Program-made: the position numbers and the translations under genes
Shown here: in pieces, positions 4,894 to 39,092 of the stretch
Numbering within the stretch: position 1 is the first letter of the stretch
How the letters are laid out: each line of letters opens with the position of its first letter
IMG/VR virus record: IMGVR_UViG_3300030012_003219
Coordinates: 1-47,062 of that record
Origin: a virus
DNA: 47,062 bases
Direction: 5' to 3' (one strand)
Notes under the pieces: model-generated
Databases searched by the model: none
What the model was told of the DNA's origin: nothing
What the model saw: the letters and a program-made list of their open reading frames with translations, nothing else

Positions 4894-4895
4894 AT

Positions 4896-7319
4896 ATGGC
4901 ATATTCTGGCAAAAGCTATTTTCCAAGCCAAACAGTTAGTGACGCTGAAAAGTTAAGCTATGACTATGGTTTAAAAGTAAGCAAAGCAATAGAGCAAGAA
5001 TGGTTTAACAACGATAAAGGTTCTAATAGATATAGATCTAATCACAATGATTTTCATAATTTAAGATTGTACGCTAGAGGTGAGCAATCTATACAAAAAT
5101 ATAAGGACGAGCTATCTATAAACGGTGATTTGTCCTATTTAAATTTAGACTGGAAACCTGTACCTATTATTTCAAAGTTTGTAGATATAGTAGTAAATGG
5201 TATAGCTGAAAGAACATATGATATAAACGCTTTTTCTCAATCTCCAAATGGTGTAGAAAAAAGAACTGAGTACATGGAAGCTATAATGAGTGACATGGAA
5301 ATGAGACAGTTTAATCAAGAAGTTAAATCTAGATTTAATATAGACGTAAAAGAAAGTAACTTAGCTAACGAAGATCTTCCAGAGTCTAGCGAGGAACTAG
5401 GTATACACATGCAGCTTAATTATAAGCAAGCAGTAGAATTAGCTGAAGAACAAGCGTTAAGTGTTTTATTTGAAGGAAATAAATATGAATTAACTAAAAA
5501 AAGATTTTATCAAGACCTTACTGTTTTAGGCATAGGTGCTGTTAAAACTTCTTTTAACACTTCAGAAGGCGTTGTCATAGATTACGTAGATCCTGCTGAG
5601 TTAGTTTATTCTTATACTGACTCTCCTTATTTTGATGATATATACTATGTTGGTGAAGTTAAATCTATACCTGTTAACGAACTAGCAAAACAATTTCCTC
5701 ATTTATCAGAAAGCGACCTTGAAGATATAATGAAAAATAAAAATTATAATAAAAACAATTATAATACTAGATATTCCACAGATAAAGAAGATAACAACAC
5801 CGTTCAAGTTTTATATTTTAATTATAAAACTTATATGAATGAGGTTTATAAAATAAAAGAAACTGGTACTGGTGCTGATAAAATTATCCCTAAAGATGAT
5901 CAATTTAATCCACCAGAAAATATGGAAGGAGGTTTTGGTAGAATGTTGAGATCTATAGAAACTCTTTATGATGGCGCTATGATTCTTGGTACTGATAAAT
6001 TGTTAAAATGGGAAATGTCAAAAAACATGATGCGACCTAAAAGTGATTATACTAAAGTAAAAATGAATTATGCTATAGTTGCACCTAGAATGTACAACGG
6101 TAAAATAGATTCTTTAGTTAGACGTATAACAGGTTTTGCAGATATGATACAGCTTACTCATTTAAAGCTACAACAAGTATTATCGAGAATGGTTCCTGAC
6201 GGTGTTTACTTGGATGCCGATGGATTAGCAGAAGTTGATTTAGGCAATGGAACTAATTATAACCCGCAAGAAGCTTTAAATATGTTTTTCCAAACTGGTA
6301 GTGTTATAGGAAGAAGCTTTACATCAGAAGGCGATATGAATCCAGGTAAAGTGCCTATTCAAGAAATAACATCTGGTAGCGGTGGTAATAAAATGCAAGC
6401 TCTTATTGGTAATTATAATTATTATCTACAGATGATAAGAGACGTAACAGGTCTTAATGAAGCTAGAGATGGTAGCATGCCAGATAAAAATGCTTTAGTT
6501 GGTGTTCAAAAATTAGCTGCAGCAAATAGTAACACTGCGACTAGACATATATTACAAGCAGGTTTATATTTAACAGCTGAAACAGCAGAGTGCTTATCAC
6601 TTAGAATATCTGATATTATAGAGTATTCTCCAACTAAAGATGCTTTTATACAAGCCATAGGTGCTCATAATGTAGCAACTCTTGAAGAAATGTCCGAACT
6701 ACATCTTTATGATTTTGGTATATTTATAGACCTTACGCCAGACGAAGAAGAAAAAGCTATTTTAGAAAACAATATACAAATGGCGTTACAACAAAAAAGT
6801 ATAGAGCTTGAAGATGCTATTGATCTTAGAGAAATAAGAAACATAAAGCTTGCTAATCAACTTCTTAAAATACGTAGAAAAAGAAAAGAAGAAAAAGATA
6901 GAAGACTTCAAATGGAAAATATCCAAGCACAAAGTCAGTCAAACGCTCAAGCGGCTCAAGTTGCTGCCCAGGTTGATGTACAAAAAAATCAAGCTTTAAA
7001 TGCTAGCAAAGCTGAGTTGATGCAAATAGAAGCTCAGATAGAATCTCAAAAAATGCTTGCTGAAGTTAATCTTAAAAAAGAATTAATGGCTTTAGAGTTT
7101 CAATATAACATGCAGTTAAAAGGTGCTGAAGTTGAGGGCATGAAAAGTAGAGAAAAAGAAAAAGAAGATAGAAAAGACGAAAGAACAAAGATACAAGCCA
7201 CTCAACAATCAGAAATGATTGATCAAAGAAAAAGTGGTAAACCACCTAAAAACTTTGAATCCGCAGGTAATGATATACTAGGCGGAGGATTTGATTTAGG
7301 TAGTTTTGATCCTAAGTAG
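4896..7319 (+). CDS. Portal protein
   Basis: This 807-residue protein lies between TerL and the scaffold/capsid genes, the canonical place of the portal, the dodecameric ring through which DNA enters and leaves the head. The N-terminal half mixes helices and strands, including DWKPVPIISKFVDIVVNGI, the kind of segment seen in the portal wing and stem. A long helical region from about residue 600 becomes a Gln/Ala/Glu/Lys-rich coiled coil (about 655-770), as expected of a long barrel or crown region. The last 30 residues are Gly- and Asp-rich (ILGGGFDLGSFDPK) and may contact scaffold or internal proteins. No other function fits as well. The length is at the large end for portals but similar to those of big podoviruses. 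Confidence 0.8.
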   Translation: MAYSGKSYFPSQTVSDAEKLSYDYGLKVSKAIEQEWFNNDKGSNRYRSNHNDFHNLRLYARGEQSIQKYKDELSINGDLSYLNLDWKPVPIISKFVDIVVNGIAERTYDINAFSQSPNGVEKRTEYMEAIMSDMEMRQFNQEVKSRFNIDVKESNLANEDLPESSEELGIHMQLNYKQAVELAEEQALSVLFEGNKYELTKKRFYQDLTVLGIGAVKTSFNTSEGVVIDYVDPAELVYSYTDSPYFDDIYYVGEVKSIPVNELAKQFPHLSESDLEDIMKNKNYNKNNYNTRYSTDKEDNNTVQVLYFNYKTYMNEVYKIKETGTGADKIIPKDDQFNPPENMEGGFGRMLRSIETLYDGAMILGTDKLLKWEMSKNMMRPKSDYTKVKMNYAIVAPRMYNGKIDSLVRRITGFADMIQLTHLKLQQVLSRMVPDGVYLDADGLAEVDLGNGTNYNPQEALNMFFQTGSVIGRSFTSEGDMNPGKVPIQEITSGSGGNKMQALIGNYNYYLQMIRDVTGLNEARDGSMPDKNALVGVQKLAAANSNTATRHILQAGLYLTAETAECLSLRISDIIEYSPTKDAFIQAIGAHNVATLEEMSELHLYDFGIFIDLTPDEEEKAILENNIQMALQQKSIELEDAIDLREIRNIKLANQLLKIRRKRKEEKDRRLQMENIQAQSQSNAQAAQVAAQVDVQKNQALNASKAELMQIEAQIESQKMLAEVNLKKELMALEFQYNMQLKGAEVEGMKSREKEKEDRKDERTKIQATQQSEMIDQRKSGKPPKNFESAGNDILGGGFDLGSFDPK

Positions 7320-13322: not shown

Positions 13323-16300
13323 ATGCCGGAGATTAAAAATACTTTCCTAAAAGGGAAGATGAATAAAGATCTTGATGAAAGATTAATACCTAACGGTGAA
13401 TATAGGGATGCTTTAAATGTAGAAGTATTTACCGCTGAAGATTCTAACGTTGGAACGTTAAAAAATATATTAGGTAATCATAGAGTAGAATCTTTAGTTG
13501 GAGGAGGGTCAGAATATACTTGCGTTGGTAGTATTTCAAACGAAAAATTAAATAAACTATATTGGTTTATCACAAGCTACTCTAAAGATATGATTTTAGA
13601 GTATGACACGGTTAATGATATTGCTCTTCCAGTAGTTGTAGATAAAAAAGCTGGTACTTTAAACGCTGTATTAAAATTTTCTGGAAACATAATTACTGGA
13701 ATAAATGTAATTGACAACCTGTTGTTTTGGACTGATAATAATAGTGAGCCTAAAAAAATAAACATAGATACTTGCAAAGCTGGTACAAATCCCAACGGCA
13801 ACGTGCACACGGTGTTATCATTTGACAAAGGTAGTTTTGATGGTATGACAATAGAACATACTATTACTAACGAAAATATTTCTGCAAGCGCAACACCTGA
13901 AGATTATACAAATGATTTTGAAAATGGTAAAAATGGAGCTTTTTTTATACCACAAAGAAGAAGGCTTGCTAAGCTTTTAGGTATATCTTACGATGATTTT
14001 GTAGATAAATTTGGTAATATAATAGATGCTAACGAAGATTCACTTGATATTGATTTAGTTGGATCAGGATATACTTTTACTGTTAGGCATTATAGAAATA
14101 ATAAGTTTTTAGGTTTAAAAGAACTAACAGTTTTTGATAACGCGCTAGGTCTTTACGCTAGAGTAGGACAATCAAATTCTACTTTTAATACAGACTATAC
14201 AAACGAAGATTGGTATGTTGGTGACGTAATTTTTGGTAATAATATAGATGTAGAAATAGAAGAGCGCCATGTTACTGTAATAAGACCAAAACCACTAGAT
14301 GTTCTTTCACTTAAAATAAATCACTCAGAAAATTCAAATAGTAAATTTAACATTCCTAACTTATTTGAAACAAAATTTCCAAGATTTTCCTATAGATATA
14401 AATTTTTAGATGGTGAGTATTCTGTTTTTGCACCTTTTACAGATGTTGTGTTTAATCCTAAATACGTTAAAGATACTACTAACTCTAATAATTCAAATAT
14501 ATTATACAATAAAGATAATGCTTATGATATAAAAGAACCTCACAATAAAGCTATGGTTAATTCCATACATTCAGTAGAGCTTACAGATTTTATTACAATA
14601 CAAACGCCAGAAGATGTATTAGAAATAGAATTATTATATAAACAAGAAGAATCACCTGTTATATATTCTATAGGTACTATCAAGCGAGGTGATAAAGAGT
14701 GGCATAGCTGGAGTAATAATGAAGGTTCAAATATAGGTATTGGACATCAATTTGATGAAAACATAGATAATCCAAAACCATATGTTTATGCGTCAGACGG
14801 TGGATACAACCAAGGAAAATATATTGTAAATACAGAAAATATATATGCCGCTTTACCTGCTAATCAATTATTAAGACCATGGGATAATGTGCCTAAAAAA
14901 GCTTTAGCACAAGAAGTTACTGGCAATAGAATAGTTTATGGTAACTATGTTCAAAATTATGATTTAACTAGTAATGTTAGTGTTTCAGTTGGATATGATG
15001 ATAGAAAAAATAAATTTAATAATTTTGATATAAAAGGATTACCCTCTATTAAATCTCAAAGAAATTATCAAGTAGGCGTTGTTTATTGTGACAAGTATGG
15101 TAGAGAAACACCTGTTTTTACATCTACTGATGCAGCTGTAACTGTTCCTTGGCAAGATCAAAACGGTGATAAAAATGCTAGCAAAAGTTTACAGCTAAAT
15201 GTTAGTACGCCGGCAAATTTTCCAGAGTGGGTTGATTCATTAAAGTTTTTTGTAAAAGAAAATTCCAATGAATATTATAACCTTGTTATGGATAGAGCTT
15301 GGGTTATAAATACCACTGATTCAACGGATAATTCAGAAAATCACATTTGGCTTTCGTTTCCATCTTCTGATAGAAATAAAGTTTCAGAAGAAGATTATAT
15401 AATTTTAAAGAAAAAAATTGGTACTGGTGAAAAACAGGTAGACTATCAAAACAAATTTAAAATTATTGATATAGCGAATGAAGCTCCAGACGTTATAAAG
15501 TATAAATACAACAGTCTTGGCGTGGCTCATAATAAAGATTCAACTACTTATCAGGCCATTAACACAATGACTTCTACAAGCCCTACCTACCCAGGTATAT
15601 TTAAAGGTGCATTTACTTCTTTATCACAGCCTAATTTTGCTGGCGCAACCATGTTACAAATCCATAGACAGGCTTGGACGATAGGTAATGCAAATAGTTA
15701 TAACGCTGGTGGTTTAAAAGCTGATTTACTAGAAACACACGGTAATTTTAAACACGGTCTTAAAGAAAATTTATATGTTTCTTGGAGAAATAGAGATACT
15801 GGTGTAAGTTCTAAAAAATATAAAGTTAGTAGCGGTAGCTTTGACAACTCTTATTACAAACTTAAACTAGCCACTCCAATTTCTGAAAAAGACGCTAATA
15901 TAGCAAAAAAAGATGGTAATTTTTCTACCAGTCAACTTACTTCGTTTACGCAAAGATTTCTTCATGCAAAGCTAGACTTTAAAGTAGAGCAAAGAGAACT
16001 TTCAACAGATGATTTTTCAGGAAGATTTTTTGTTAAAATATCTAAAAATCAAGTTACAGATTTAATTGAAAGTGGTAATATAAAAAATATATTAGACCAA
16101 AGTTATGTTTCATCTGCGGCAAGCTTGTTTTTTCTTAGAGATGATAAAGGAGACTCAGCAGATGCTACTAACGCAGATTATGGATTAAATAATTATGAAG
16201 GTGCTTTAGGTCATAGTGGTTATTCATTTCACAATGCAGTACATAACGGTTGGGGTGATGCTTCTGGTGATGCAGCAAGTAGTTTATCATTAAAAGTTAC

Positions 16301-19300
16301 TGATTTTGCACAAGTTTGGAAAAACTTAAGAGATAGCCAACACGGCCCTACTTTTTTTGTTGATGCTTTACACATGGCAGCTGGTCAAAGTGAAGCTAGT
16401 GATAACGCTAAATATTCTTGTATAACTTGGTCTGGCTGTACAAAAAATGACGATGAAGCTACTTCTGAAGAATCAGCTTGGAGCTATCCACCATTAAAAA
16501 CATGGCTTTCAGATTTTAATAACTTAACAAATATATTAACTTCTGGTGTTGAAATACCTATTGGATCTATTTATTATAACGAAGAATTAATTTCAACATC
16601 ACCTGGCTTACCTAACAACAATAACTATAACAATTTAAAAATTGACGGTTGGGTTGGTCCATTGCAAAACGTTGAAAGAGATAATTCTGATAACTTAACT
16701 ACAGTTAATGATAACTCTGTAAATGGTTTAGAAGGTTTTGTTACAACATCGTTAAAACATTCAAGGGGACCAAGAAGATGGTTTAGTGGTATAACATCAT
16801 CAAACACAGAGCATGGTGTTGGTTTTAACACAAATACATACGCTGAAGATGAAAATGATATTAACAGGCACTTTATGCATCTATCATTTTTTGCGCCAGG
16901 AAAAGATCTTCACGATGGAAATTTTGATTTAAACATTAGCTCAGCTACTTCTATTATTTATGGTGAAAAATCTATTGCAGCTAATTTACAAGGTATATGG
17001 GGTGGCGGTGTGTTTACAGGTGAAGAAAAATTTGATACATTTGGAACAAACATTGACCCAGAACAAAAGTTTTTACATTTTCCTATGGAAGGTAATTACG
17101 ATGAAAACAATAATTATTTATCTGAAACGCCTGGTCCTGGCGTTGGTTACGGTTACAACATTAAATATAAAGAGCTTTATGAAAGGCAGTGGGATCCTAC
17201 TTTTAATAAAAATGGAGACGAAGACAATAAAATACGTGACTTTATAAGAAACTTATACCCTGGAGCTAAATTTAGATTTCACAGAACAAGAACAGTAGAT
17301 GCTACAACAGCAGTTGCAGATTTAGTTGACGATACTGTTTATACTATTAAAAAAGTACAAGTAAAAAAACTATATAACCATACTTCTTGGAGAAAGCCTT
17401 ACAATAGATATATTTCTGGAACTACTGGTTCTCTTGGCGTAGATTATGGATATGTACATCTTGATAGTCAAAATGAAATATATCAAAGTGTTGAGCAAGT
17501 TGCATTGCGGTGGTTGGATACAGTTGAAGGCGTAAGCGCTGGAGAAATTGGAACTGACACTTTGCTAGGTTATAACGCAAGTGGTGTTTTAGATTCAGGA
17601 TTAACTCGTAAAATAAAAGAATTTGGAGCTTCTCACAATAGACGTGTTTGTTATATAATAGAACTAGATAAAAATCCTGCTGATAGTACTAGTTCTTTAG
17701 GTAATCCTATTAACGCTCAAACAAAACTTATTAATGGTACCGCCGCTAGTGGCGACTGTATGAGTGCTAATCACTCGCAAAGAGAGTTTTGTGATGTTGA
17801 GTTTTTAAACCCAATAGAAGACTTTATACTTTCTGATTTAAGTAAGTTTCCAGCTATATGGGAGCTTGATCCTAAAAAACAAGAAGTAGATTTAGATATA
17901 TATTACGAAGCAAGTAATAACATACCTATAAAATTAAGCCCAACTACTAACGAGCTTTTTGCACCGCTTGGTTGTAGAGTAGAAGTTTTAAACTCTACAG
18001 TATCATCAAGTTCTATATTAAAATCTTGGAATAATAACGAGGCTATTTTCCATCCTGGTTTTCCAAAAGGAAGTGCTGGTGTTGAAATAAACTACAGCGG
18101 TATGTCGTTTAAATTTATTAGACAAGATGGTAGTTATACTATAGCAGAAGCTGGTCAACAAGATTTAGATGGTGGTAGTACAGGTAGAAAAACAAATTTT
18201 GTTTTTAGAGAAGAAATTGGTGATGTTATATCTGCTGGACTTTCTTGGAATAATTGTTTTTCTTTTGGTAATGGTATTGAATCTAATAGAATTAGAGATG
18301 ATTTTAACGAGCCTTTTATTACAAACGGTGTAAAGGCTTCTACTATAACACAAGAAACATACAGACAAGAAAGAAGAAAAAATGGATTAATATATTCTGG
18401 CATATATAATTCTGACGGTGGCGTAAATGATTTAAATCAGTTTATAATGGCTGAAAAGATTACAAAAGATTTAAATCCAACATATGGTAGTATACAGCGT
18501 CTTTATAGTAGAAATACAGACTTAGTTACTTTTTGCGAAGATAAAGTAATTAAAGTTTTAGCAAATAAAGATGCTTTATTTAACGCAGATGGAAATCCTC
18601 AGCTTGTGTCTAATGAAAACGTTTTAGGTCAAACGATACCTTTTGTAGGTGAATATGGCATAGCAACAAATCCAGAATCTTTTGTTTCAGAGTCTTATAG
18701 AGCTTATTTTACGGACAAACAAAGAGGTGCTGTACTTAGATTATCTAAAGATGGTTTAACACCTATATCTAAAATAGGTATGAACGATTGGTTTAAAGAT
18801 AATTTAAGAGAATACAATCATTTAATAGGTACTTATGATAACCATAAAGAAGAGTACAATTTAACTTTAACAAACAATCCTGTTCTTAGTGAAAACTTTA
18901 TATTAGATTCTTACTTAGAAACTGGGGAAGCTTTAGAAGAGTATTCGCTAGGGTCTTTAAGTGTAGTAACAAATCCAGGTGTTTTTAATGGTAATTCTTT
19001 TAATTTTCTTTACGAACCACTTAACGCGCCACAGTACAGTATTCTTGAATATGAAAACTCAAGCAATATATTTGATTGGAGTCCTTTTACATATGCTGCG
19101 TATAATTTTCAAGAGCAAATTAAAATAGTACATCATGCTGCTATTCCAGTAGGTGGTATTGCTGATGAAATACCAGAAGCACTTGGTCAGCAGGGCGTTA
19201 TAACCGGTACAATTCAAGGCGCTGAAATAACAGAAACTAGATATGAAGTTACTGTAACACTTCCAGATGGTTCTACAATAACTTATGATCAAGATAATAA

Positions 19301-22300
19301 CGGTGATTACTTTAATACATCGCAAGAAGCTATAGATTATGCTGCGTCACAAGGTTATAGCGCAGGTTCTGTATCTGTAGCACCAATTGTAACTCCTTTT
19401 GGACAAGCTGAATATGAAGAAGCGCAAAACTTACCTGATAATGGTTGGTGGTATGATCCAAGATTTACAGATATAAGTAGTGATTTATTTGGTAGTAATA
19501 GAACTGCGTTTGCAGATACAAACGTTTTTAGTGTAATTAAAAGGGTTTCTAATGGATTTGATTTACATAATGAGGGTGATCCGTTTCCCGAAGATAGAAT
19601 TCATTATCCAAATAAAACAGGTTACACAGGAACAACACCTTCAAATATAACTTCAATAGCTCAGTGTGTAACAAGGCATAATGGTCAAAACAATTTAGGT
19701 AGTTATAACGCAGATAACGGCACTGCAAACGCAATAACATTTTACAGGGCTAATCCAGCTAATTCTTATGTTGAGTTTAAAGATGTTGGAAATACATATA
19801 ATCCTGGCCGTGGCGCATTACAAACTTATCATGATAATGGCGGTAATGTTGGAGCGTGGGCACATAGAACTTTTTACGCTGGTGATGAAATACACATACA
19901 GTTTGAAATGACTATTTTTAAAACTGCTGGATCTAGCGGAAGAGCAGCAACTTTAGGTTACAACCATATTATACCTAGAATACAATTATACGATGGGAAT
20001 AATTTAATTAATAGTAATATACTACAAGCTGGCAGTATAAATAATATAAACAGTGATCCTTACGTTGGCGCAAATACTAGTCCTAATGATATGGGTAGTG
20101 ATTTTCACAACGCTAATAGCTCTTTTACACAAGACATGTATGAGGAAAATGATGATAACGATGGCTTTGTTTGTGTAAAAAGAGTTTTCTCAACAAGTGC
20201 TACTGTTGATTTTCCAGATACGTCTCTTGATACAAGTTGGAGAGGTACAACACTTAACAACCCCGCTAAATGCAAATCCAGCTTTGATTATGATTTTCCA
20301 AGTATGACCCAAGGGTTAACTGCTAGTCAATATTTAAGTAGTAGTTTTCCAGCTCAAGGCCAGTTTGATGGTTATGGAACTCATAAAGTTACATGTGGTG
20401 TTAGTTTTAAGTTTAAAGATGTTAATTACCCTAACGCGGCTAACGCAACTGGTGGAATTACTGAAATTGAAGAAGTTAAAGTTGTTAATAATCTTAGAAT
20501 ACGTATAAGTAATGCGAAACCAGCTAGTACATTATATGATACTTTTGGTAGTACTAATCTGACTTTGTATCGGACAACTGAATTTAATGGTAATGAAAAC
20601 TTTTATTTACCAGGTGAACTTGGAGCTTTAAACCAAACTATTGTTGCCCCTTTAAATTATCAACTTTGGCAATTAAACAAACTACTTGTTAAAAAAGGTC
20701 TTGGAGTAACAAAGCCACATGTTGATTTTACTATAACACCTCAAGATGATTTAGTTACCACTGTTGACACAACTAATCTAGGAACTTTTGGAACAGGTTT
20801 GTTTGAACCTGACCAACCGGTTTATACAGATAGACATTATGTTCCACCTATTCCAGCTGTAGCTGTACCTGCTTGGACGGAAGTACTACATAACGTTGGT
20901 AATTCTTTCCCTTGGAATATAGATGTTAACGCTTGGGGAGCTGGTACTGGCGGTAATATATATCGTACTCAAGCTCAAGAGCCTACTGTTTGTGGCGGTA
21001 ACTACGGTAAAGTATTAGTAACTGAGCAAGGTCAAAACCTTACAGATATTTCACAACCACCTAATAACCCTGTTCAATATTACAGGCCTGGTACAACGCC
21101 AGCAGGTGGATCTCCTTACGGAACTTTAGGTGCCGCCTCTGGAAGTCCTATTGGTGTTGACTACAATAGAACTTACATGAGTCACGCTGGCTACAACTCG
21201 GTTTCACCACCTAATAATTCTACTGCAATAAACTACAGCAATGAATATATTTATGTTCAAAATAGCACAGTAGTTCCTTATAACGCACCTGCTAACGAGC
21301 AATACGGCGCGTTAGATATTGAGTACAATATAGGTGGTAATCCTTGGGAGATAGATACATGGTATTTAGTAGATATTGAATGGGATGAATCACACAATCC
21401 TGATGCTGGTCAATTTTACTCTGGTGGAGATGGAATACTAAGGCTTTTTGGTGTACTAGAAAATGATCTAACATACGGAGGTTTTAGCGCTGGAGATGAT
21501 TTATCAATTTCTCCATCATATGGCGAATCATGGGTTGGTAAATTCTCTGGTGGTCATGGTATAGCTTTAGTGCCTGTTACAAGGACTGAATACGGTACAC
21601 AAAGAACTGTATTAAGAGCTATATTTAAAACACAAGCTAACTCTCATGTTTTCACTGGCACTGTTAATCAAAATAGATTTGTTTTAAGAGCTGTTGGTAT
21701 TCTTAACGGTATTAAAATAAATAAAATAATAACAAAAAAATTAAACGGTGGTGTTTCTAATGGTGGCATATGGCAAAGCTGGTTAAATACTAGTGGTACA
21801 GCTGATCAATGGACAATATCAAGCATTGATTCTTCAGGTAATCCAGAAGAAATAAACCATGCTTTTCAAGGCAAACGAGTTTATCACAACGGAGGTTATT
21901 TAAACTGGGAAGTTCCAGCTAGTGCAACTTCAGGGCTACATCATTGGAGTCAAGATTTTAACACTTTACAAACTCAAGATGCACCAGTAGTTTCAGATGT
22001 TGGTTGGAATTTAAGCTTTACAATAAACACAAATCAAAGAACTGGAAATGCTTTTTCTGGAAATTTAGAAGGTTTTGTTACTATAGCAGACGCTGGCGCA
22101 ACTAACTTGGTTGAAGGTATTTACTTTACAGATATTCAAGAAACAGGTCAATATTTAATTAAATTTAACTTTGACGGTAACGATACTAACTGGGAATTTT
22201 TAAGAGGCGAGCTAGGTGCTAGTATTAATACTTTTACAGATTACACTTCTACAGGTTCTATAGAAGCTGTAAGCAATGTATCAAGTTTAACAGCAATAGA

Positions 22301-23687
22301 TGCCAATAAAATAACTATAAGAGAAAAAGCTGGGCAAACTGTAGCTCAAGAATACGGAATAAGCGATATACAACTTACAGATGCTCAACAAGTATTTTTA
22401 GGTGGATCTGCTGGATCTTGGAACTTTAGCGGTTTTAATACTTCTTTAAATGATTATATTTATTGGAATGTAATTAATAAAAATATAGTGTTTTTTAATT
22501 GTCCTGCTGTAGGTAGCTATGGAAATTCTGTAGGTTTTATAAACGCAAATCAATTAATTACTAAAACTATAAAGCAATTTGAAAAGTATAAAATAAGTTT
22601 TACACATACTATAACATCAGATAGCACAGCTACACTTTCAGTTTACTACTATAACTCTGATGGTTATGGTTTTAAAATAAGCAATATAAATTCTTCTACT
22701 GGTGTAAACGGTTTAGTTGAACAAGTAATAACAATTGGTGAACTAGATTCAAATGGTAATCCTGTAGCTGGATCTAAATGGAGTAATACTAATTTAGATT
22801 ACCCTACTTATACTGCTGACTTAAAAAATTCTTTTGTATTTTCTGTTGAAGGCCAGCCAGATGATATTATTGATGGCACAATAGATAATATAACAATGCA
22901 GAGAGTATTTACAGACTCTAGCTTTGAAGATAAAACTGTAACTTTTAATGAAACAGTTAATGGTTGGACTAGTTTTAAAAGTTTTGTACCTGAAAACGGG
23001 TTAAGTGTTTCTAAAAAATACTTTACCTTTAACAAAGGAGGTTTATACCAACACCATGTACCTTTAGACAAGCAAAACAACGCTTATGGTATAGATAATA
23101 ACACTGGTGCTAAAATATATGTAAAACCTGAAGATGCTGTTAATTATAATCTTTTTTATCAAGATCCTTTTGAAATATCAACAGTAACAGCTGTATTTAA
23201 CCAAGAGCCATCTGTAATAAAAACTTTTAATACTTTAAATTACGAAGGTAGTCAAGCGCGAATTGTTCCGCCTTATGTTTCACAATCAGAAAACACAGTA
23301 ACGTTAAACAATGCTAGTGCAGCGTTTCAGATAGGTGGTATAAGGGGTTGGGAATGTACAGCGATAAAAACAGATTTACAAGTTGGAACTGTTAAAGAAT
23401 TTATTAAAAAAGAAGGCAAGTGGTTTAATTATATAAAAGGTACAAAAGAAAACCCAACTATGGATATAGACACAAGTTTGTTTAGCGTTCAAGGATTAGG
23501 CTTTATAGAAAGCATTGAAGTAGCTGATTCTATAGAAGAACTTGGCACGTATGTAGATCCCTTCCCAAGTGGCGTTTCTTCTGTTGATAATACTTCTCCT
23601 AATGCTAGCGTTGCTACTGGAAGTGCTGCTGGTGGTAGTGGTGGTACAACTGGTGGTGGTGGTATAACTGGTGGCGGTGGTTATTAA
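13323..23687 (+). CDS. Giant tail tube/nozzle (tubular-B or stabilisation-like) protein with adhesin-like insertions
   Basis: This protein has 3454 residues. The N terminus (KNTFLKGKMNKDLDERLIPN, then GEYRDALNVEV and VGTLKNILGN) is the conserved opening of phage tail nozzle or 'stabilisation' proteins, like the start of T7 gp12. Beta-propeller-like blades follow (LYWF near 78, LFWTDNNSEPKKINI near 133). A second conserved core lies at about residues 1700-1860 (LYSRNTDLVTFCEDKVIKVL; FTDKQRGAVLRLSKDGL). Between and after these cores are about 1000 and 1600 residues of Asn/Ser/Thr/Gly-rich beta domains, plausibly glycan-binding modules. One, at about 1965-2015, contains YEVTVTLPDGSTITYDQ. The C terminus is a Gly-rich tail of about 25 residues. 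It probably forms the tail nozzle and its appendages. No frameshift is evident over 10.4 kb. Confidence 0.7.
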   Translation: MPEIKNTFLKGKMNKDLDERLIPNGEYRDALNVEVFTAEDSNVGTLKNILGNHRVESLVGGGSEYTCVGSISNEKLNKLYWFITSYSKDMILEYDTVNDIALPVVVDKKAGTLNAVLKFSGNIITGINVIDNLLFWTDNNSEPKKINIDTCKAGTNPNGNVHTVLSFDKGSFDGMTIEHTITNENISASATPEDYTNDFENGKNGAFFIPQRRRLAKLLGISYDDFVDKFGNIIDANEDSLDIDLVGSGYTFTVRHYRNNKFLGLKELTVFDNALGLYARVGQSNSTFNTDYTNEDWYVGDVIFGNNIDVEIEERHVTVIRPKPLDVLSLKINHSENSNSKFNIPNLFETKFPRFSYRYKFLDGEYSVFAPFTDVVFNPKYVKDTTNSNNSNILYNKDNAYDIKEPHNKAMVNSIHSVELTDFITIQTPEDVLEIELLYKQEESPVIYSIGTIKRGDKEWHSWSNNEGSNIGIGHQFDENIDNPKPYVYASDGGYNQGKYIVNTENIYAALPANQLLRPWDNVPKKALAQEVTGNRIVYGNYVQNYDLTSNVSVSVGYDDRKNKFNNFDIKGLPSIKSQRNYQVGVVYCDKYGRETPVFTSTDAAVTVPWQDQNGDKNASKSLQLNVSTPANFPEWVDSLKFFVKENSNEYYNLVMDRAWVINTTDSTDNSENHIWLSFPSSDRNKVSEEDYIILKKKIGTGEKQVDYQNKFKIIDIANEAPDVIKYKYNSLGVAHNKDSTTYQAINTMTSTSPTYPGIFKGAFTSLSQPNFAGATMLQIHRQAWTIGNANSYNAGGLKADLLETHGNFKHGLKENLYVSWRNRDTGVSSKKYKVSSGSFDNSYYKLKLATPISEKDANIAKKDGNFSTSQLTSFTQRFLHAKLDFKVEQRELSTDDFSGRFFVKISKNQVTDLIESGNIKNILDQSYVSSAASLFFLRDDKGDSADATNADYGLNNYEGALGHSGYSFHNAVHNGWGDASGDAASSLSLKVTDFAQVWKNLRDSQHGPTFFVDALHMAAGQSEASDNAKYSCITWSGCTKNDDEATSEESAWSYPPLKTWLSDFNNLTNILTSGVEIPIGSIYYNEELISTSPGLPNNNNYNNLKIDGWVGPLQNVERDNSDNLTTVNDNSVNGLEGFVTTSLKHSRGPRRWFSGITSSNTEHGVGFNTNTYAEDENDINRHFMHLSFFAPGKDLHDGNFDLNISSATSIIYGEKSIAANLQGIWGGGVFTGEEKFDTFGTNIDPEQKFLHFPMEGNYDENNNYLSETPGPGVGYGYNIKYKELYERQWDPTFNKNGDEDNKIRDFIRNLYPGAKFRFHRTRTVDATTAVADLVDDTVYTIKKVQVKKLYNHTSWRKPYNRYISGTTGSLGVDYGYVHLDSQNEIYQSVEQVALRWLDTVEGVSAGEIGTDTLLGYNASGVLDSGLTRKIKEFGASHNRRVCYIIELDKNPADSTSSLGNPINAQTKLINGTAASGDCMSANHSQREFCDVEFLNPIEDFILSDLSKFPAIWELDPKKQEVDLDIYYEASNNIPIKLSPTTNELFAPLGCRVEVLNSTVSSSSILKSWNNNEAIFHPGFPKGSAGVEINYSGMSFKFIRQDGSYTIAEAGQQDLDGGSTGRKTNFVFREEIGDVISAGLSWNNCFSFGNGIESNRIRDDFNEPFITNGVKASTITQETYRQERRKNGLIYSGIYNSDGGVNDLNQFIMAEKITKDLNPTYGSIQRLYSRNTDLVTFCEDKVIKVLANKDALFNADGNPQLVSNENVLGQTIPFVGEYGIATNPESFVSESYRAYFTDKQRGAVLRLSKDGLTPISKIGMNDWFKDNLREYNHLIGTYDNHKEEYNLTLTNNPVLSENFILDSYLETGEALEEYSLGSLSVVTNPGVFNGNSFNFLYEPLNAPQYSILEYENSSNIFDWSPFTYAAYNFQEQIKIVHHAAIPVGGIADEIPEALGQQGVITGTIQGAEITETRYEVTVTLPDGSTITYDQDNNGDYFNTSQEAIDYAASQGYSAGSVSVAPIVTPFGQAEYEEAQNLPDNGWWYDPRFTDISSDLFGSNRTAFADTNVFSVIKRVSNGFDLHNEGDPFPEDRIHYPNKTGYTGTTPSNITSIAQCVTRHNGQNNLGSYNADNGTANAITFYRANPANSYVEFKDVGNTYNPGRGALQTYHDNGGNVGAWAHRTFYAGDEIHIQFEMTIFKTAGSSGRAATLGYNHIIPRIQLYDGNNLINSNILQAGSINNINSDPYVGANTSPNDMGSDFHNANSSFTQDMYEENDDNDGFVCVKRVFSTSATVDFPDTSLDTSWRGTTLNNPAKCKSSFDYDFPSMTQGLTASQYLSSSFPAQGQFDGYGTHKVTCGVSFKFKDVNYPNAANATGGITEIEEVKVVNNLRIRISNAKPASTLYDTFGSTNLTLYRTTEFNGNENFYLPGELGALNQTIVAPLNYQLWQLNKLLVKKGLGVTKPHVDFTITPQDDLVTTVDTTNLGTFGTGLFEPDQPVYTDRHYVPPIPAVAVPAWTEVLHNVGNSFPWNIDVNAWGAGTGGNIYRTQAQEPTVCGGNYGKVLVTEQGQNLTDISQPPNNPVQYYRPGTTPAGGSPYGTLGAASGSPIGVDYNRTYMSHAGYNSVSPPNNSTAINYSNEYIYVQNSTVVPYNAPANEQYGALDIEYNIGGNPWEIDTWYLVDIEWDESHNPDAGQFYSGGDGILRLFGVLENDLTYGGFSAGDDLSISPSYGESWVGKFSGGHGIALVPVTRTEYGTQRTVLRAIFKTQANSHVFTGTVNQNRFVLRAVGILNGIKINKIITKKLNGGVSNGGIWQSWLNTSGTADQWTISSIDSSGNPEEINHAFQGKRVYHNGGYLNWEVPASATSGLHHWSQDFNTLQTQDAPVVSDVGWNLSFTINTNQRTGNAFSGNLEGFVTIADAGATNLVEGIYFTDIQETGQYLIKFNFDGNDTNWEFLRGELGASINTFTDYTSTGSIEAVSNVSSLTAIDANKITIREKAGQTVAQEYGISDIQLTDAQQVFLGGSAGSWNFSGFNTSLNDYIYWNVINKNIVFFNCPAVGSYGNSVGFINANQLITKTIKQFEKYKISFTHTITSDSTATLSVYYYNSDGYGFKISNINSSTGVNGLVEQVITIGELDSNGNPVAGSKWSNTNLDYPTYTADLKNSFVFSVEGQPDDIIDGTIDNITMQRVFTDSSFEDKTVTFNETVNGWTSFKSFVPENGLSVSKKYFTFNKGGLYQHHVPLDKQNNAYGIDNNTGAKIYVKPEDAVNYNLFYQDPFEISTVTAVFNQEPSVIKTFNTLNYEGSQARIVPPYVSQSENTVTLNNASAAFQIGGIRGWECTAIKTDLQVGTVKEFIKKEGKWFNYIKGTKENPTMDIDTSLFSVQGLGFIESIEVADSIEELGTYVDPFPSGVSSVDNTSPNASVATGSAAGGSGGTTGGGGITGGGGY

Positions 23688-28791: not shown

Positions 28792-31700
28792 ATGAATATA
28801 TACAACTACGCTGGACAAGATTTTACTGAAGATCAAATTGAAAAAAGAGCTACATCTAAAGGATTGTCTTTACAAGAATACTTAAATCAAAATCCCGAAA
28901 TAACACTTGTGTCGGGAAAAGAACAAGGCTCGACGGAAGACCCGACGATGAGCCAAGAAAGTATGGGGTCACAATCGGACGATGGTTTTTCGGCTTCGTA
29001 CGATTTACCTCAAGTTGATGTAACTGCTGATAAAACAGAATCACAAGAAGATGACACTTGGATTGAAAGAACTTTAGGCAAGAACTTTGCAACTGATTTT
29101 TTAGGAGACTTATGGAGAGCGGGCGAACAAGGTATGGCTCAAGGTGCTACAGTTGATGAGGCTTTTGATGTTTATAAAAAAGGTAAAGATATATCAGACG
29201 AAGAATTAAGAAGATATATAGAAGTTAGTGACGCTTTAGATAAAACCGGAGTTTCAGACGAAATGCGTGAATACGAAAAAATTAAAGAAGAAGCTGGTGG
29301 TGGAGTTTGGGGTTTTATGAAAGGTATGGTTATGACTAGGGGTCAAGTTATACCACAAGTTATAGTTAGTTCCGCCGCTGCGATGGGTAGAACTTTTTTT
29401 GACTCTGAAGAAGCTGCATTAGCCGCGGGTGGTGGTGCAGCTGTTGCCGGTGCTGCTGGTAGTGTTGTTCCTATAGTTGGTACAGCTACTGGAGCTATTG
29501 GTGGTGCTATCGCTGGATTAACTGGTTCTATGGAAACAGCTTTAACACTAACAGAATTATTAAAAACAGAACTTGGCGATAAAGATTTTAATAAAGAAAA
29601 TATTAGGGCTATATTAGAAGATGAAGAGCTTTTCGAAGATATAAAAGACAGAGCTTTAGCAAGAGGTGCTACTATTGGTGCCGTTGAAGGGATTACGGTT
29701 GGTTTATCAAGAGGTGTTGGGGCTAAGCTATTAGCAAAAGGCGCTAGTAAAGGTAAAATAGCAAGACAAGTAACTGGTATTGAAACGCTTGGGGGTTCTG
29801 GTGGTGAGGCCTTAGGCCAAGTTGCTGCTGGGCAAGAATTTGATATAGCTGAAGTTTTAATGGAAGGTGTTGCTGAAGCAAAAGGTGTTGTAAATGTTGC
29901 TGATATTCTTGCTAAAAAAGAATATAAAATAAACGGTGAGAAAAGAACTAGAAAAGAAGTATTAGATAAAATAAATAATACAAAACCAGAAAGCTTAGCT
30001 GAGATTCAATTTGATATAACTGGAGATAAAAATCTTGATAATTTAGTAAGACAAAAACAAGGTGACGCTATTTTTAAAACACAAATAGATGAAAGAGTAG
30101 AAGAGGCAGATAGAAATAAATTAGTTGAATTAGAAAAGAAAAGATTAAAAGCTGAAGCTGATAAGAAAAAGAAAGGTATATTTGCTGTCCCTGGAGCAGA
30201 AACCACTTTAGAGAATATAGAAGGTCAAATAGCTGAAATTATTGGTAGATATGAAGGTGTTGACCGTAGAACTTCAGATGTTAGAGCAAGAAAGAAAGTA
30301 GCTGGAGAAGTTAGAGCAGGAGTTGCAGAAAGAGATTTTCAAGCTAACATGGCGTTTGCTAAAAAACATAGTGAGTTGTATGGTTTAAAGTTTACTGAGC
30401 TAACTCAAGAAGAAGTAAAGAAAAGATTTGAAAACACTGAAAACTCAGGTTTAGTAAACTCTTTAGGTGGTATTATTGGAGATGAAATAATAATAAACAA
30501 AGACTTAGCAAAAACTAGGGTTTATGGTGACAATGTTGGTAATCATGAATTGTTACATGGTATAATTAAAGCTAGTAAAGCCAATATAACACAGGAGACT
30601 ATAAATGATTTTTTAAATATTATAGGTGAGGACAACAAAGCTATAATTCAAAAAAGAATAGATGAGAATTATGATGCTGATTACATGTCTAAAAATTTAG
30701 ATGAATATTTTACTATATTTTCTGATGCAATAGCTAATAATGAGGTAAAGTTTAACGACAATGTATTTACAAAAATAGCAGATGTTATTAGAAGAATGTT
30801 TGCTAGTTTTGGTATTGCAAAAGTAGACTTTGAAAGTGGCCGTGGTGCTTATAACTTTTTAAAAGATTACAACAAAAGTATACACAAAGGAACATTAAGC
30901 AAAGGTGTTAAAGCAAAAGCAAGCGATGTTGTATTTGAAGAAGCTAAAGACTCTAGAAGTAAACTTGTTGATACTATAAATGATTTACAGCAAGGCGCAA
31001 CCACTAGGGCTAACTTTCAAAAACCTGAAATATTTAATAAGGTATTTGAAGCTGTGCAGTCTGGTGGTGCTATAAACAACTATATAAGAAGTCTTGGCAT
31101 GAGTACTGAAAAAACTCAAGAGACTATTGATGCCGTAACAGATCGTTTAATAAACTTTGATCCAGCTGCTAAAAGAAAAGATGGTACTACTATAGGACCA
31201 AGAGGTCTTGGTGAATTTATAATGGCTAACGTAGGTTTTGGTAAATTAGAAGCGGCTAAAAAACTAGCGGTTGAAGGTGAAACAAGAAAAAGAACTACAC
31301 GTATAGACGATCCAGATGTTAAAAATATACCTGATGATACACCTGCGCCAACTACAAAAACAGAAACTAAAACTAAGAAAACAGTTATAGCAGAAAAATT
31401 AGGTATTACTAAAGAAGTTGCAGAAGCTATTAATAAAATAGTTCCAAACTTAGACATTAATAAATTAAATTTTAAAACTTTAAAAAATCAAATACCTGAA
31501 ATAACTGGTAAATTATTTGGTATATCTACTAAAAAAATAGAAGATTTGTCTAATTTAAGCAAGCCTGAGTTGCAAGCAGCGCAGATGTTTATTAGTAAAA
31601 ATGCCCCTTTGCTAATCGCTATGTTGCCAAAAGGCGCTACTATTAGTGGTACTTCTACTGGAGTGCCTAATACTTTGTTAGCTGCGTTTTATACTAAAAC

Positions 31701-34700
31701 TGCTAAAGCTAAACTTACTAAAACAGGTAGCCGTGCTGGTTTGCCTATACAAGTTAAAAACAAAAATATAACACCTAAAAAGTTTTTAGAAACATTTGGC
31801 ATTATAGATGGTAAGCCAATGCGTGACGATAGAAATACATCCGCTAGAGTATTAGCATTAGCTAATTTAACTGGTAAAATGATAAGTAACCAAGCTGTTA
31901 GACAAGAGCTAAGTCAAACAAGTGAAAAAGTAACAGAGGCTATCAATAAAATAAAAGAAGGTAAATCAGATATTATGTTTTCTAAAAGCTATGGAAATAA
32001 AGTTTTAGAAAAAAGTAAACTTAAACCTGTTTCAAACCAAAATGTTAATGATAGAGTTATTTTTACAACTTTTATTGAAGAATATTTACCTTTATTTGTA
32101 CCTGTTCCTAGATTAAAAAGTGGTAAGTTCAGATTACCTTCTGATACTTATGGTCCTAGATCAAAAATAGTGCCTGGTTATTATATAACAAGATTTCAAA
32201 GAGAAATTTCAGCCGTTAAAGCTGGTAATGTACAACTAGGAAATAAAATTTATACAAAAGAACAAACGGATCAAATAAATAAAGCATATAGTGTTGTAAA
32301 GTTTGACGAGTCACAAAAACAAATTGAAACTAGAAAAAAAGGTGCTGAATTATTTATAAAAGGTTTAAATGAAGCCGTAAACAGTAAAAAAGGAAATAAA
32401 CAAAATTTAAGACCTATACAAATGTTATTAGGTAGTACACCTAACGGCACATATCATATTGTTAGGATGATAGCCCCTGGTTTAGGCGTTACAAATGTTG
32501 GTAAAGCAAGTAAAAGAGAGCATGTTTTAGTAGCAAACAATGCTGCTGATATTATAATTGAATCTTTAGCTAAAGATAATATAAATTTAGTTTTACCTTG
32601 GTTATTAGATAATTATTACCAAATTAATGTTAACTCGCAGCAAGAAACATTAATAGATAATGCTTACAAAGACTCTGACGGTAAAGCTATTTCTAAAGAA
32701 GAAATGCCGCCTATTTTTTATGAAAATTTAAACAAAGCTATTGATGCAAAAGATATGTCTTTAGCTAGTGATCCTTTAATAAGGTACACAATGGCTAATG
32801 TTAATTTAAGCGAAATAAACTGGCATACTGGCGGAACACTATTGCAACATATAGACGCTAAGTACGGTTTTGATGGTGCTTTAAGTTATGGTAATAACAG
32901 TGAAACTAACGTTGAGTTTGTAAACAAACGTTTAACAGATTTTTTTGCTAAAAAAACAGATAAAAAACAAACTAAAAAAGCTATTGAAAACATATCTAAA
33001 GTAAAGTTTAAACAAAAGTTAAATAGCGATAAAACTTTTAATGATGCTGTTAAAGCTTCTAGATCTAGCAAAGAGTCTAAAGGTATTAGCATTTTAGATT
33101 TTGACGATACACTGGCAACAACTAAATCTTTAGTTAAATATACAACGCCAGATGGTGAAACCGGTACTTTAAACGCAGAACAGTTTGCTAGTACGTACCA
33201 AGACTTGCAAGACCAAGGTTATACATTTGACTTTTCTGATTTTAATAAAGTTGTAAAAGGTAAGCTAGCACCACTATTTAACAAAGCAATTAAATTGCAA
33301 GGTAAGTTTGGCCCTGAAAATATGTTTGTATTAACAGCAAGACCACCGCAGGCAGCTAAAGCTATATTTGATTTTTTAAAAGCTAATGGTTTAAATATAC
33401 CTTTAAAAAATATAACTGGCTTAGGTAATAGTACTAGTGAAGCTAAAGCACTTTGGGTTGCAGATAAAGTTGGTGAAGGTTATAATGATTTTTATTTTGC
33501 TGATGATGCTTTGCAAAACGTGCAAGCTGTTAAAAATATGTTAGATCAGTTTGACGTTAAGTCTAAAGTACAACAAGCTAGAGTTAAATTTAGTAAAAGC
33601 ATGAATGACGACTTTAATAATATACTAGAAGAAGTTACTGGTATTGACGCTAAAAAACGTTTTTCAGAAATTAAAGCTAGAAAACGTGGTGCTAGTAAAG
33701 GTAAGTTTAGATTATTTATACCACCGTCACATGAAGACTTTGTAGGGTTATTATATAACTTCATGGGTAAAGGTAAGAAAGGTGATCAACATAGAAACTT
33801 TTTTGAACAAGCTTTAGTTAAACCATTAAATAGAGCTTATAGGGAAATAGATACGGCTAAGCAAGCTATAGCAAATGATTATAAATCTTTAAATAAACAA
33901 TTTCCAGAAGTTAAAAAGAAATTAACAAAAGAGACTCTTGATGGTGATTTTACTTTTCAAGATGCTATAAGAGTGTACTTATGGAATAAACATGGTTATG
34001 ATATACCTGGTTTAACTAAAACTGATCAAGCTAAATTAGTTGAACTAGTAATGAACGATGCAGACTTAGTGCAGTACGCTGAAACTTTAAATGTTATATC
34101 TAAACAAGATACGTATGTAGATCCGGGGCCAAGCTGGGAAACAGGTAATATAAGAATAGATTTAATAGATGCTACCGGTAGAGTTGGTAGAGCACAGTAT
34201 TTTACTGAGTTTAACGAAAACGCTGAAGTAATATTTTCACCAGAAAATTTAAATAAAATTGAAGCTGCTTATGGTAAAGATTTTAGGGAGGCTTTAGAAG
34301 ACATGTTACATGCTATTAAAACTGGTATTAATAGACCTAAAGGTGCTAATGCTAAACCAAATATGTTTTTAAACTGGTTAAACGCTTCTGTATCTGGAGT
34401 TATGTTTTTTAACACTAGATCTTCAATACTACAGCAAATGTCTATTGTTAATTATATAAACTTTGCTGACAATAACATGTATGCAGCTGGCAAAGCTTTT
34501 GCTAATCAATCTCAATACTGGAAAGATTGGGCGTTTATATTTAACTCTGACATGTTAAAACAAAGAAGAGGTGGCATTGGTACAGATATAAATGGTGCTG
34601 AGCTTGCGGAAGCAGTTAAAAAAGCTAGGCCTAATAATTTATTTGATCAAGTAGCTATAATAACAGGTAAATTACTTAAACTAGGATTTTTACCTACACA

Positions 34701-35709
34701 AATTGGTGATAACATCGCAATTGCTACTGGTGGTGCTACTTTTTATAGAAACAGAATAAATAAATATATAAAAGATGGTATGAGCAAAAAAGAAGCTGAA
34801 GCAGCTGCTTTTACTGACTTTCAAAATTTAACACAATCAACTCAGCAGTCGTCAAGACCTGACATGACATCGCAGCAACAAAGATCTTGGATAGGTAAGT
34901 TTGTATTAAACTTTCAAAACATAACATCGCAATATAATAGAATAATTAAAAAAGCCGCTTTAGATATATACAATAGAAGAATTACACCGCCTTATACCAC
35001 GCAAACACAAAGTGATTTAGGTAACTTATCTAAGATATTATATTATGGTGGTATACAAAACGTTTTATTCTATAGTTTACAAACAGCTTTGTTTGCGGTT
35101 ATGTTTGATGATGATGAAGATGAAGATCAAATATTAAAGAAAAAAGAAAGAGTTATAAATGGTACTATTGACTCTATATTAAGAGGTTCTGGTATATACG
35201 GTGCTGTTGCATCTACGCTTAAAAACATGATTATAAAGTTTAACGAGCAAAGAGAAAAAGGTTATAATAAAGATGAAAGCGCTGTATTGATGGAGGCTTT
35301 AAATTTTTCGCCTATTGTTGGTATTAGAGCTAGAGGTATTGTTAGTGGTGAAAAAACTCTTAATTACAGCATGCCTGTTATAAAAGAAATGGAAACTTTT
35401 GACATTGACAATCCTATGTGGTCAGCTGTTACTAATTATATTCAAGTAGCTGGATTTCCTGCAAATAGATTATATCAAAAAAGTATAAACATGCGTAACG
35501 CTCTTAATACAGATTACACTAACTTTCAAAGAGCTTTGTTTTTTAGTGGTTATACAACTTGGAGTTTAGGTTTAGGTGATCCTGAGGCTGTAATAGAAGC
35601 AAAAGAAAAAGTTAAAATAAACAAGAAGAATACTAAAAAGAAAAGCAAAAATAAAACAAAAGCTACATCTGCGCAAGATAGATTAAAAGCTATTAGAGCT
35701 AAAAAATAA
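28792..35709 (+). CDS. Giant multi-domain ejection (polyvalent) protein with zinc-peptidase and HAD domains
   Basis: This protein has 2305 residues. The order seen is as follows. A short N-terminal motif (SLQEYLNQNPEITL, about 25-38) is typical of large marine-phage virion proteins. A glycine-zipper membrane segment lies at about 210-255 (GGGAAVAGAAGSVVPIVGTA). A metallopeptidase-like HELLH motif spans 585-589 (GNHELLHGII). A helical region follows, then an MFSKS motif at 1062-1066. A HAD phosphatase-like domain has DFDDT at 1436-1440, LTAR at 1514-1517 and a FADDA motif with D1571/D1572. A KFSKS motif sits at 1599-1603. Late membrane-interacting segments include LFYSLQTALFAVMF before an acidic cluster, and the tail is basic. 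Such polyvalent proteins are packaged in the head and injected to act on the host early. Its place after gp14/gp15-like genes fits a gp16-like role. The enzymatic activities are inferred from motifs. Confidence 0.75.
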   Translation: MNIYNYAGQDFTEDQIEKRATSKGLSLQEYLNQNPEITLVSGKEQGSTEDPTMSQESMGSQSDDGFSASYDLPQVDVTADKTESQEDDTWIERTLGKNFATDFLGDLWRAGEQGMAQGATVDEAFDVYKKGKDISDEELRRYIEVSDALDKTGVSDEMREYEKIKEEAGGGVWGFMKGMVMTRGQVIPQVIVSSAAAMGRTFFDSEEAALAAGGGAAVAGAAGSVVPIVGTATGAIGGAIAGLTGSMETALTLTELLKTELGDKDFNKENIRAILEDEELFEDIKDRALARGATIGAVEGITVGLSRGVGAKLLAKGASKGKIARQVTGIETLGGSGGEALGQVAAGQEFDIAEVLMEGVAEAKGVVNVADILAKKEYKINGEKRTRKEVLDKINNTKPESLAEIQFDITGDKNLDNLVRQKQGDAIFKTQIDERVEEADRNKLVELEKKRLKAEADKKKKGIFAVPGAETTLENIEGQIAEIIGRYEGVDRRTSDVRARKKVAGEVRAGVAERDFQANMAFAKKHSELYGLKFTELTQEEVKKRFENTENSGLVNSLGGIIGDEIIINKDLAKTRVYGDNVGNHELLHGIIKASKANITQETINDFLNIIGEDNKAIIQKRIDENYDADYMSKNLDEYFTIFSDAIANNEVKFNDNVFTKIADVIRRMFASFGIAKVDFESGRGAYNFLKDYNKSIHKGTLSKGVKAKASDVVFEEAKDSRSKLVDTINDLQQGATTRANFQKPEIFNKVFEAVQSGGAINNYIRSLGMSTEKTQETIDAVTDRLINFDPAAKRKDGTTIGPRGLGEFIMANVGFGKLEAAKKLAVEGETRKRTTRIDDPDVKNIPDDTPAPTTKTETKTKKTVIAEKLGITKEVAEAINKIVPNLDINKLNFKTLKNQIPEITGKLFGISTKKIEDLSNLSKPELQAAQMFISKNAPLLIAMLPKGATISGTSTGVPNTLLAAFYTKTAKAKLTKTGSRAGLPIQVKNKNITPKKFLETFGIIDGKPMRDDRNTSARVLALANLTGKMISNQAVRQELSQTSEKVTEAINKIKEGKSDIMFSKSYGNKVLEKSKLKPVSNQNVNDRVIFTTFIEEYLPLFVPVPRLKSGKFRLPSDTYGPRSKIVPGYYITRFQREISAVKAGNVQLGNKIYTKEQTDQINKAYSVVKFDESQKQIETRKKGAELFIKGLNEAVNSKKGNKQNLRPIQMLLGSTPNGTYHIVRMIAPGLGVTNVGKASKREHVLVANNAADIIIESLAKDNINLVLPWLLDNYYQINVNSQQETLIDNAYKDSDGKAISKEEMPPIFYENLNKAIDAKDMSLASDPLIRYTMANVNLSEINWHTGGTLLQHIDAKYGFDGALSYGNNSETNVEFVNKRLTDFFAKKTDKKQTKKAIENISKVKFKQKLNSDKTFNDAVKASRSSKESKGISILDFDDTLATTKSLVKYTTPDGETGTLNAEQFASTYQDLQDQGYTFDFSDFNKVVKGKLAPLFNKAIKLQGKFGPENMFVLTARPPQAAKAIFDFLKANGLNIPLKNITGLGNSTSEAKALWVADKVGEGYNDFYFADDALQNVQAVKNMLDQFDVKSKVQQARVKFSKSMNDDFNNILEEVTGIDAKKRFSEIKARKRGASKGKFRLFIPPSHEDFVGLLYNFMGKGKKGDQHRNFFEQALVKPLNRAYREIDTAKQAIANDYKSLNKQFPEVKKKLTKETLDGDFTFQDAIRVYLWNKHGYDIPGLTKTDQAKLVELVMNDADLVQYAETLNVISKQDTYVDPGPSWETGNIRIDLIDATGRVGRAQYFTEFNENAEVIFSPENLNKIEAAYGKDFREALEDMLHAIKTGINRPKGANAKPNMFLNWLNASVSGVMFFNTRSSILQQMSIVNYINFADNNMYAAGKAFANQSQYWKDWAFIFNSDMLKQRRGGIGTDINGAELAEAVKKARPNNLFDQVAIITGKLLKLGFLPTQIGDNIAIATGGATFYRNRINKYIKDGMSKKEAEAAAFTDFQNLTQSTQQSSRPDMTSQQQRSWIGKFVLNFQNITSQYNRIIKKAALDIYNRRITPPYTTQTQSDLGNLSKILYYGGIQNVLFYSLQTALFAVMFDDDEDEDQILKKKERVINGTIDSILRGSGIYGAVASTLKNMIIKFNEQREKGYNKDESAVLMEALNFSPIVGIRARGIVSGEKTLNYSMPVIKEMETFDIDNPMWSAVTNYIQVAGFPANRLYQKSINMRNALNTDYTNFQRALFFSGYTTWSLGLGDPEAVIEAKEKVKINKKNTKKKSKNKTKATSAQDRLKAIRAKK

Positions 35710-37827: not shown

Positions 37828-37838
37828 AATAAATAATT

Positions 37839-38572: not shown

Positions 38573-38573
38573 A

Positions 38574-39091: not shown

Positions 39092-39092
39092 A

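Follow-up and report, generated by a model that had tools for sequence, protein, structure and literature searches.

What would a phage do with a single 2305-residue protein that carries both peptidase and phosphatase motifs? The window analysed here, the whole 47,062-nucleotide stretch of virus record IMGVR_UViG_3300030012_003219, raises this question through a giant ORF with an ATG start at 28792..35709 (plus strand, as are its parts and the terminase, portal and muzzle-domain genes described below), whose product we call P0001. The answer that P0001 is ejected virion cargo, combining a zincin with a PNKP-like, end-healing HAD phosphatase, is one to which we assign evenly balanced odds.

Upstream of this gene, a large terminase (identified by homology to annotated TerL) and a portal are encoded at 2680..7319, and a 3454-aa protein at 13323..23687 contains a crassvirus muzzle C-terminal domain (PF25729, E 5.1e-9); the phage is therefore crAss-related. 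At 3454 residues this muzzle-like protein is very long. The terminase, portal and next head proteins follow the same order as in Bacteroidota podoviruses, including the elemo phages (Flavobacterium), Cellulophaga phi38:1, Maribacter phage Panino and a Manatee Spring podovirus. P0001 occupies the position of the last giant gene of these podoviruses, which is annotated “structural protein” in the elemo phages and phi38:1. Homology at this position is real, though partial: our zincin profile picks up the elemo giant protein (E 1.5e-10), and our N-terminal module profile picks up the one from Manatee (E 2.8e-13). Downstream of P0001 we also observed a cluster of small, strongly basic proteins at 37453-39091 (e.g. 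MKKPMKMVKKAPAKMAKKSPAKK), which are perhaps DNA-condensing; a 929-aa protein at 39057-41846 whose start looks like a signal peptide and which contains a MAM domain (PF00629, E 1e-21), odd in a phage; and a peptidase M15-type endolysin at 44799-45254 (PF08291, E 1.8e-15).

A sequence-only reading of the window had picked out four motifs in P0001, and all four lie where it placed them: HELLH at residues 585-589 (30544..30558), DFDDT at 1436-1440 (33097..33111), LTAR at 1514-1517 (33331..33342) and FADDA at 1569-1573. Composition shuffling of P0001 produced HExxH with P about 0.0045 (0.45% of shuffles); for the complete [hydrophobic]2-D-[hydrophobic]-D-[DG]-T pattern P was about 0.0015 (0.15%). 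Conservation is the stronger test of these motifs. The same reading had noted a glycine-zipper stretch and late hydrophobic segments. Using a 19-residue window and a Kyte-Doolittle threshold of 1.4, we found that the only segments of P0001 above threshold fall within residues 208-244 (29413..29523), where GxxxG is kept in the relatives’ consensus; the late segments lie below the threshold, making that part of the claim weak. Pfam gave no match to P0001 above its cut-off, and sub-threshold hits to Urocanase and MpsC were dismissed as chance.

We collected relatives of P0001 in three scans. The IMG/VR scan returned 78 loci, a genome-contig scan returned 19 further loci (all in metagenome-assembled bins, several of them Bacteroidota), and a third scan, with a nested kinase-HAD fusion as the query, returned 80 loci, some of which belong to other phages. 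The search patterns included HAD stretches and so favour HAD-bearing relatives, making the HAD frequency among them an upper estimate. The P0001 core had no homologue by tblastn against 50,697 phage records, and it was not found by a profile search of three isolates run without a positive control. Across the 78 IMG/VR relatives, alignment depth is 10-51 over residues 1-700, 8-15 over residues 1101-1400 and 64-73 over residues 1401-2200, and the best-conserved segment, residues 1501-1600, lies inside the HAD domain (89% identity). As far as these alignments reveal, the family is built in three layers: exchangeable N-termini, a swappable zincin slot and a conserved C-terminal core. A variable middle region at residues 720-1400 (30949..32991) contains the stretch where few relatives align.

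The N-terminal layer begins with a tag of about 40 residues (residues 1-41, 28792..28914), which in P0001 is predicted to form a confidently folded small domain (pLDDT about 90). Among relatives the first 40-100 residues are exchangeable, with several kinds of short tag that often occur in tandem; across L001-L078 the ~40-residue start takes the form of several unrelated tags, often paired in tandem. These tags could be packaging or docking signals. A helical module follows at residues 90-450 (29059..30141), predicted as helical in the model and matching PHROG 32588 over residues 54-448 (E 2.2e-58). Two relatives carry a peptidoglycan hydrolase at the N-terminus: L018 has a T4-type lysozyme and L069 an SLT transglycosylase. 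Such leading-end enzymes would suit a virion protein on its way across the envelope. T7 gp16 is an ejected protein with a peptidoglycan hydrolase at its leading end. The N-terminal transglycosylase or lysozyme of the two relatives resembles internal virion proteins of the gp16 type, whereas P0001 itself lacks such a domain.

The second layer is a putative zincin at residues 500-700 (30289..30891). In the part of the protein that precedes the HAD, exactly one HExxH is found in 69 of 73 relatives and none in the other 4, against an expectation from composition of 0.006 per protein; two of the 4 are truncated, one of which, L048, has HELLH just ahead of its first Met. The zincins of the clade that includes P0001 (clade A) keep H585, E586, H589 and E638 invariant in 38 of 38 aligned sequences, and Y627 nearly so. 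The proposed third zinc ligand, E638 (30703..30705), is likewise invariant in 54 BLAST-aligned relatives. Predicted helices at 579-594 and 638-648 carry the HExxH and the downstream glutamate of the zincin pattern. The only zincin recognised in the structural list is PPEP-3, a weak match to model residues 512-673 (Z 4.7, rmsd 4.6 over 136 residues). The HExxH...Y627...E638 arrangement resembles that of zincins of the lethal-factor/PPEP type, and together with the PPEP-3 match it points weakly to that type. The earlier proposal of a zincin gains in-silico support from the HExxH and downstream glutamate; its suggestion of an M78-like enzyme gains none. The lethal-factor/PPEP type has also been named for the zincins of polyvalent proteins (PMC5512222). 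A PDB sequence search with the zincin and HAD profiles gave no match. The Pfam MPTase-PolyVal model likewise matched none of 41 records, this being one model against the 12 MPTase clades described for polyvalent proteins (PMC5512222).

Other relatives carry different zincin clades in the same slot (ETRTHEVGH, SPIHELQH, VLSHEISH and more), which are remotely related. We rejected the idea that these represent unrelated folds: hhalign single-pair probabilities are 97 for clades A-B, 92 for A-C and 87 for A-D, so the clades are detectably related and the swapping therefore takes place inside one superfamily. On the tree of the C-terminal module, the zincin clade label changes 31 times, compared with 30.7 in shuffles, no better an agreement with the tree than chance gives. 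Judging by these patterns, the slot preserves a predicted peptidase activity even though one enzyme clade is freely exchanged for another.

In the conserved core, the HAD phosphatase domain is predicted at residues 1428-1592 (33073..33567). The four HAD catalytic motifs (DxDx[TV], T/S, K and DD) correspond to D1436-D1438-T1440, T1515, K1552 and D1571/D1572. D1436, F1437, D1438, T1440, the LTAR at 1514-1517, K1552 and D1571/D1572 are invariant in all 72-74 aligned relatives, with residue 1439 always D or E. The proposed motif III lysine K1552 (33445..33447) is invariant in 73 relatives and the motif IV pair D1571-D1572 (33502..33507) in 72. When residues 1405-2290 were modelled, a HAD-like core bearing a small cap emerged. 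Foldseek of this 886-residue model against the PDB returned helical noise only (best E 0.22), so a second look with VIA was needed. For model residues 21-186, where model confidence is moderate, most of the 50 rows in the VIA structural list are HAD-fold chains, headed by the LNS2 domain of Nir2 (Z 9.7, rmsd 2.9, 111 aligned) and including a HAD hydrolase (Z 8.1), class B/C acid phosphatases, phosphoserine phosphatase, KdsC and Fcp1. The invariant catalytic residues and the HAD fold predicted over 1428-1590 uphold the assignment made from motifs alone. The accompanying remark that a HAD is unusual in an internal virion protein does not survive the comparison, as no other part of this large family is so well conserved as the HAD.

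Of 67 members, 52 match PHROG 415, which is named polynucleotide kinase (best 2.4e-7), and 18 match Pfam HAD. In a search of these members at E<=10, run with heuristic filters, HAD_PNKP (PF25109) was not among the best 25 of 29 families, and when the HAD profile was compared directly with T4 PNKP, only motif I aligned. An intact HAD is missing from a minority of relatives (L093, L094, L098, L100 and L102), and L096 has a remnant without the DD pair. We also noted a SRxxLYxxL domain, GNAT-like in look, beside or in place of the HAD in L095, L096 and L098; in L063 the HAD is followed by a repeat-rich insert.

L062, L088 and L092 contain an insert of ~200 residues in the HAD cap hairpin, after motif I, that is a P-loop kinase; for L088 the best-matching model is AAA_33 (3.4e-17), followed by Zeta_toxin (1.6e-13) and chloramphenicol phosphotransferase (CPT, 4e-7). 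In all, 42 copies have the HAD interrupted at this one place, model position 43-45, which corresponds to about residue 1455 of P0001. Walker A is present in 42 of 42 of these copies, LTAR or ITAR in 42 of 42 and the DD motif in 40 of 42. Between them, HAD and kinase match PHROG 415 and PHROG 505, which is also named polynucleotide kinase. The nested kinase was gained or lost at least 12 times on the tree, counting supported branches, and is present in L034, which is 68% identical to P0001 over the C-terminal part of the core. In P0001 itself the cap-hairpin site (residues 1454-1456, 33151..33159) is empty, and the AAA_33-HAD joining typical of PNKP is not found; the nested mobile kinase lay beyond the view of a reader given this sequence alone. 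The presence of the kinase within the HAD of dozens of relatives suggests that the pair mends nucleic-acid ends at entry.

Kinase and homologous HAD are encoded as separate nearby genes in L149-L157, L159, L163 and L164, with the two genes overlapping in L159. We detected no RNA ligase near these genes in ten records, several of them partial, and the control for the second ligase family gave no signal. In L159 and L163, kinase and HAD both start with a MIKLKDLLxE-type leader that unrelated neighbours share; four ORFs in each of these loci carry the leader, but no ORF of the window does. In L163 the HAD frame begins VVIKLKDLLIE. T4 capsid-targeting sequences are propeptides of about 10 residues that are cleaved after L/I-x-E (PMC9026906), and by sequence the L159/L163 leader appears to resemble them, the L163 kinase leader fitting the pattern less well. 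If the leader is indeed capsid-targeting, a second phage lineage would have the kinase-HAD pair inside its virions. The leader also heads series of small, mutually unrelated ORFs at L159:7950-10077 and in L149 and L163. At L163:1068-2459 the separate kinase is broken at Walker A by an intein-looking sequence (GGPG-C...HN-SGKT) and, as read here, falls in two frames.

The sequence-only reading had P0001 acting on nucleotides or modified ends, and the second half of that guess is the better one, given that many relatives have a polynucleotide-kinase-like domain within their HAD. In a rival explanation, an ejected phosphatase acts on small molecules (nucleotides, alarmones or nucleotide second messengers of the infection response) and the nested kinase is a zeta-toxin-like kinase of small molecules. 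The kinase’s Zeta_toxin and CPT matches agree with this, as do the likeness of the HAD model to class B/C acid phosphatases and phosphoserine phosphatase and the nucleotide-acting domains known in polyvalent proteins (PMC5512222). However, the top-scoring model is AAA_33, to which the kinase domain of T4 PNKP belongs, and HAD and kinase between them match the two PHROGs named polynucleotide kinase; we consider action on small molecules rather doubtful.

The phosphatase could instead act on host or virion proteins, or be an assembly factor that packs the C-terminal module. It is joined to that conserved module and holds the best-conserved segment (89% identity), and Fcp1 and small CTD phosphatases are in the structural list. 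Yet the catalytic residues are all invariant, something a purely structural part would not require, some relatives keep the C-terminal module without a HAD, and the polynucleotide-kinase-like partner better suits nucleic acid, leaving this explanation improbable. Delivery itself could also be questioned, since none of the phage isolates searched has the core and P0001 might be a late cytoplasmic protein that just happens to be encoded in the structural gene block. This seems improbable to us given the peptidoglycan-hydrolase fusions and the glycine zipper, the slot that P0001 shares with proteins annotated as structural, and a C-terminal likeness to polyvalent proteins. The most economical reading, we infer, is a virion-delivered end-healing phosphatase, accompanied in many relatives by a kinase. 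Counting against it are the missing kinase in P0001, the lack of HAD_PNKP among the best families for the HAD, the restriction of the T4 PNKP alignment to motif I, the weakness of the zincin fold match, the failure to see an RNA ligase in ten records, the kinase’s other matches to Zeta_toxin and CPT, and a core that no searched isolate carries.

In the mechanism we propose for end healing, P0001 would be packed in the particle of a crAss-related podovirus of marine Bacteroidota and would leave it with or ahead of the DNA. The glycine-zipper N-terminal module may help P0001 pass or line the envelope channel, and the zincin probably cuts either P0001 itself or a host protein. Cleavage would free the C-terminal enzyme part in the cytoplasm, where the HAD may strip phosphates from nucleic-acid ends in the manner of the PNKP phosphatase half; many relatives also have the putative kinase half, inserted in the HAD cap. 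A plausible purpose would be the healing of DNA or tRNA ends cut by host nucleases at entry. More tentatively, and with the balance tilted against it, we propose that crAss-related marine phages inject an end-healing HAD whose cap kinase is repeatedly plugged and unplugged and which is freed by a swappable metallopeptidase, undoing DNA or tRNA breaks that host defences make at the very start of infection, and that other phages deliver the pair as separate capsid-targeted proteins. If this is right, repair of nuclease damage starts with particle-borne enzymes, ahead of any phage gene expression, a form of counter-defence without description in the literature surveyed. In this family the kinase nested in the HAD cap is a repeatedly mobile cassette, and the zincin slot retains one predicted activity while the enzyme clade is swapped freely; together they make the enzyme roles of ejection proteins directly testable.

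Polyvalent phage proteins are among the closest known systems. Like them (Iyer et al. 2017, PMC5512222), P0001 is a giant multidomain protein of the late structural block with a zincin-like peptidase and, occasionally in its family, a lysozyme; it joins zincin and HAD in one 2305-aa chain inside that block. Its C-terminal helical module (residues 1640-2290, 33709..35661), over most of which 64-70 of the 78 relatives align, has BFVD matches named PolyVal ADP-ribosyltransferase, large polyvalent protein associated and MuF C-terminal, and these names place P0001 structurally among polyvalent proteins. The LPD38 model had no match in 41 records, where its control was likewise silent. The view of P0001 as a polyvalent ejection protein thus gains from its position in the structural block, the hydrolase fusions of two relatives and the PolyVal-like C-terminal module, with its domains predicted in silico. 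Zincins are well described in polyvalent proteins and have been proposed to process the polypeptide (PMC5512222). Unlike those proteins, the P0001 family adds a HAD phosphatase and, in many copies, a polynucleotide-kinase-like domain; HAD phosphatases and polynucleotide kinases go unnamed in the main text of that paper (PMC5512222).

P0001 also belongs, by the muzzle domain, to the same broad phage group as crAss001, in whose virion several large cargo proteins (gp45-gp50) were found by mass spectrometry (PMC10172136); the cargo described there is channel-forming or RNA polymerase, not HAD or zincin. HADs of jumbo-phage RNA repair include a family that is usually fused to polynucleotide kinase (PMC7824862). 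T4 PNKP (PseT), which in our scan comprises AAA_33 and HAD_PNKP, has a HAD that weakly matches models of LNS2, the group heading the structural list of the P0001 HAD. As in T4 PNKP, AAA_33 kinase and HAD occur in one polypeptide in 42 family copies, and elsewhere in nearby genes. T4 PNKP is, however, a separate enzyme with the kinase first and the HAD second, un-nested, whereas in the P0001 family the kinase, where present, sits inside the HAD cap as part of a giant chain; P0001 itself lacks it. Zincin-bearing polyvalent proteins were already known; the nested, mobile kinase in the HAD is the new and unusual feature.
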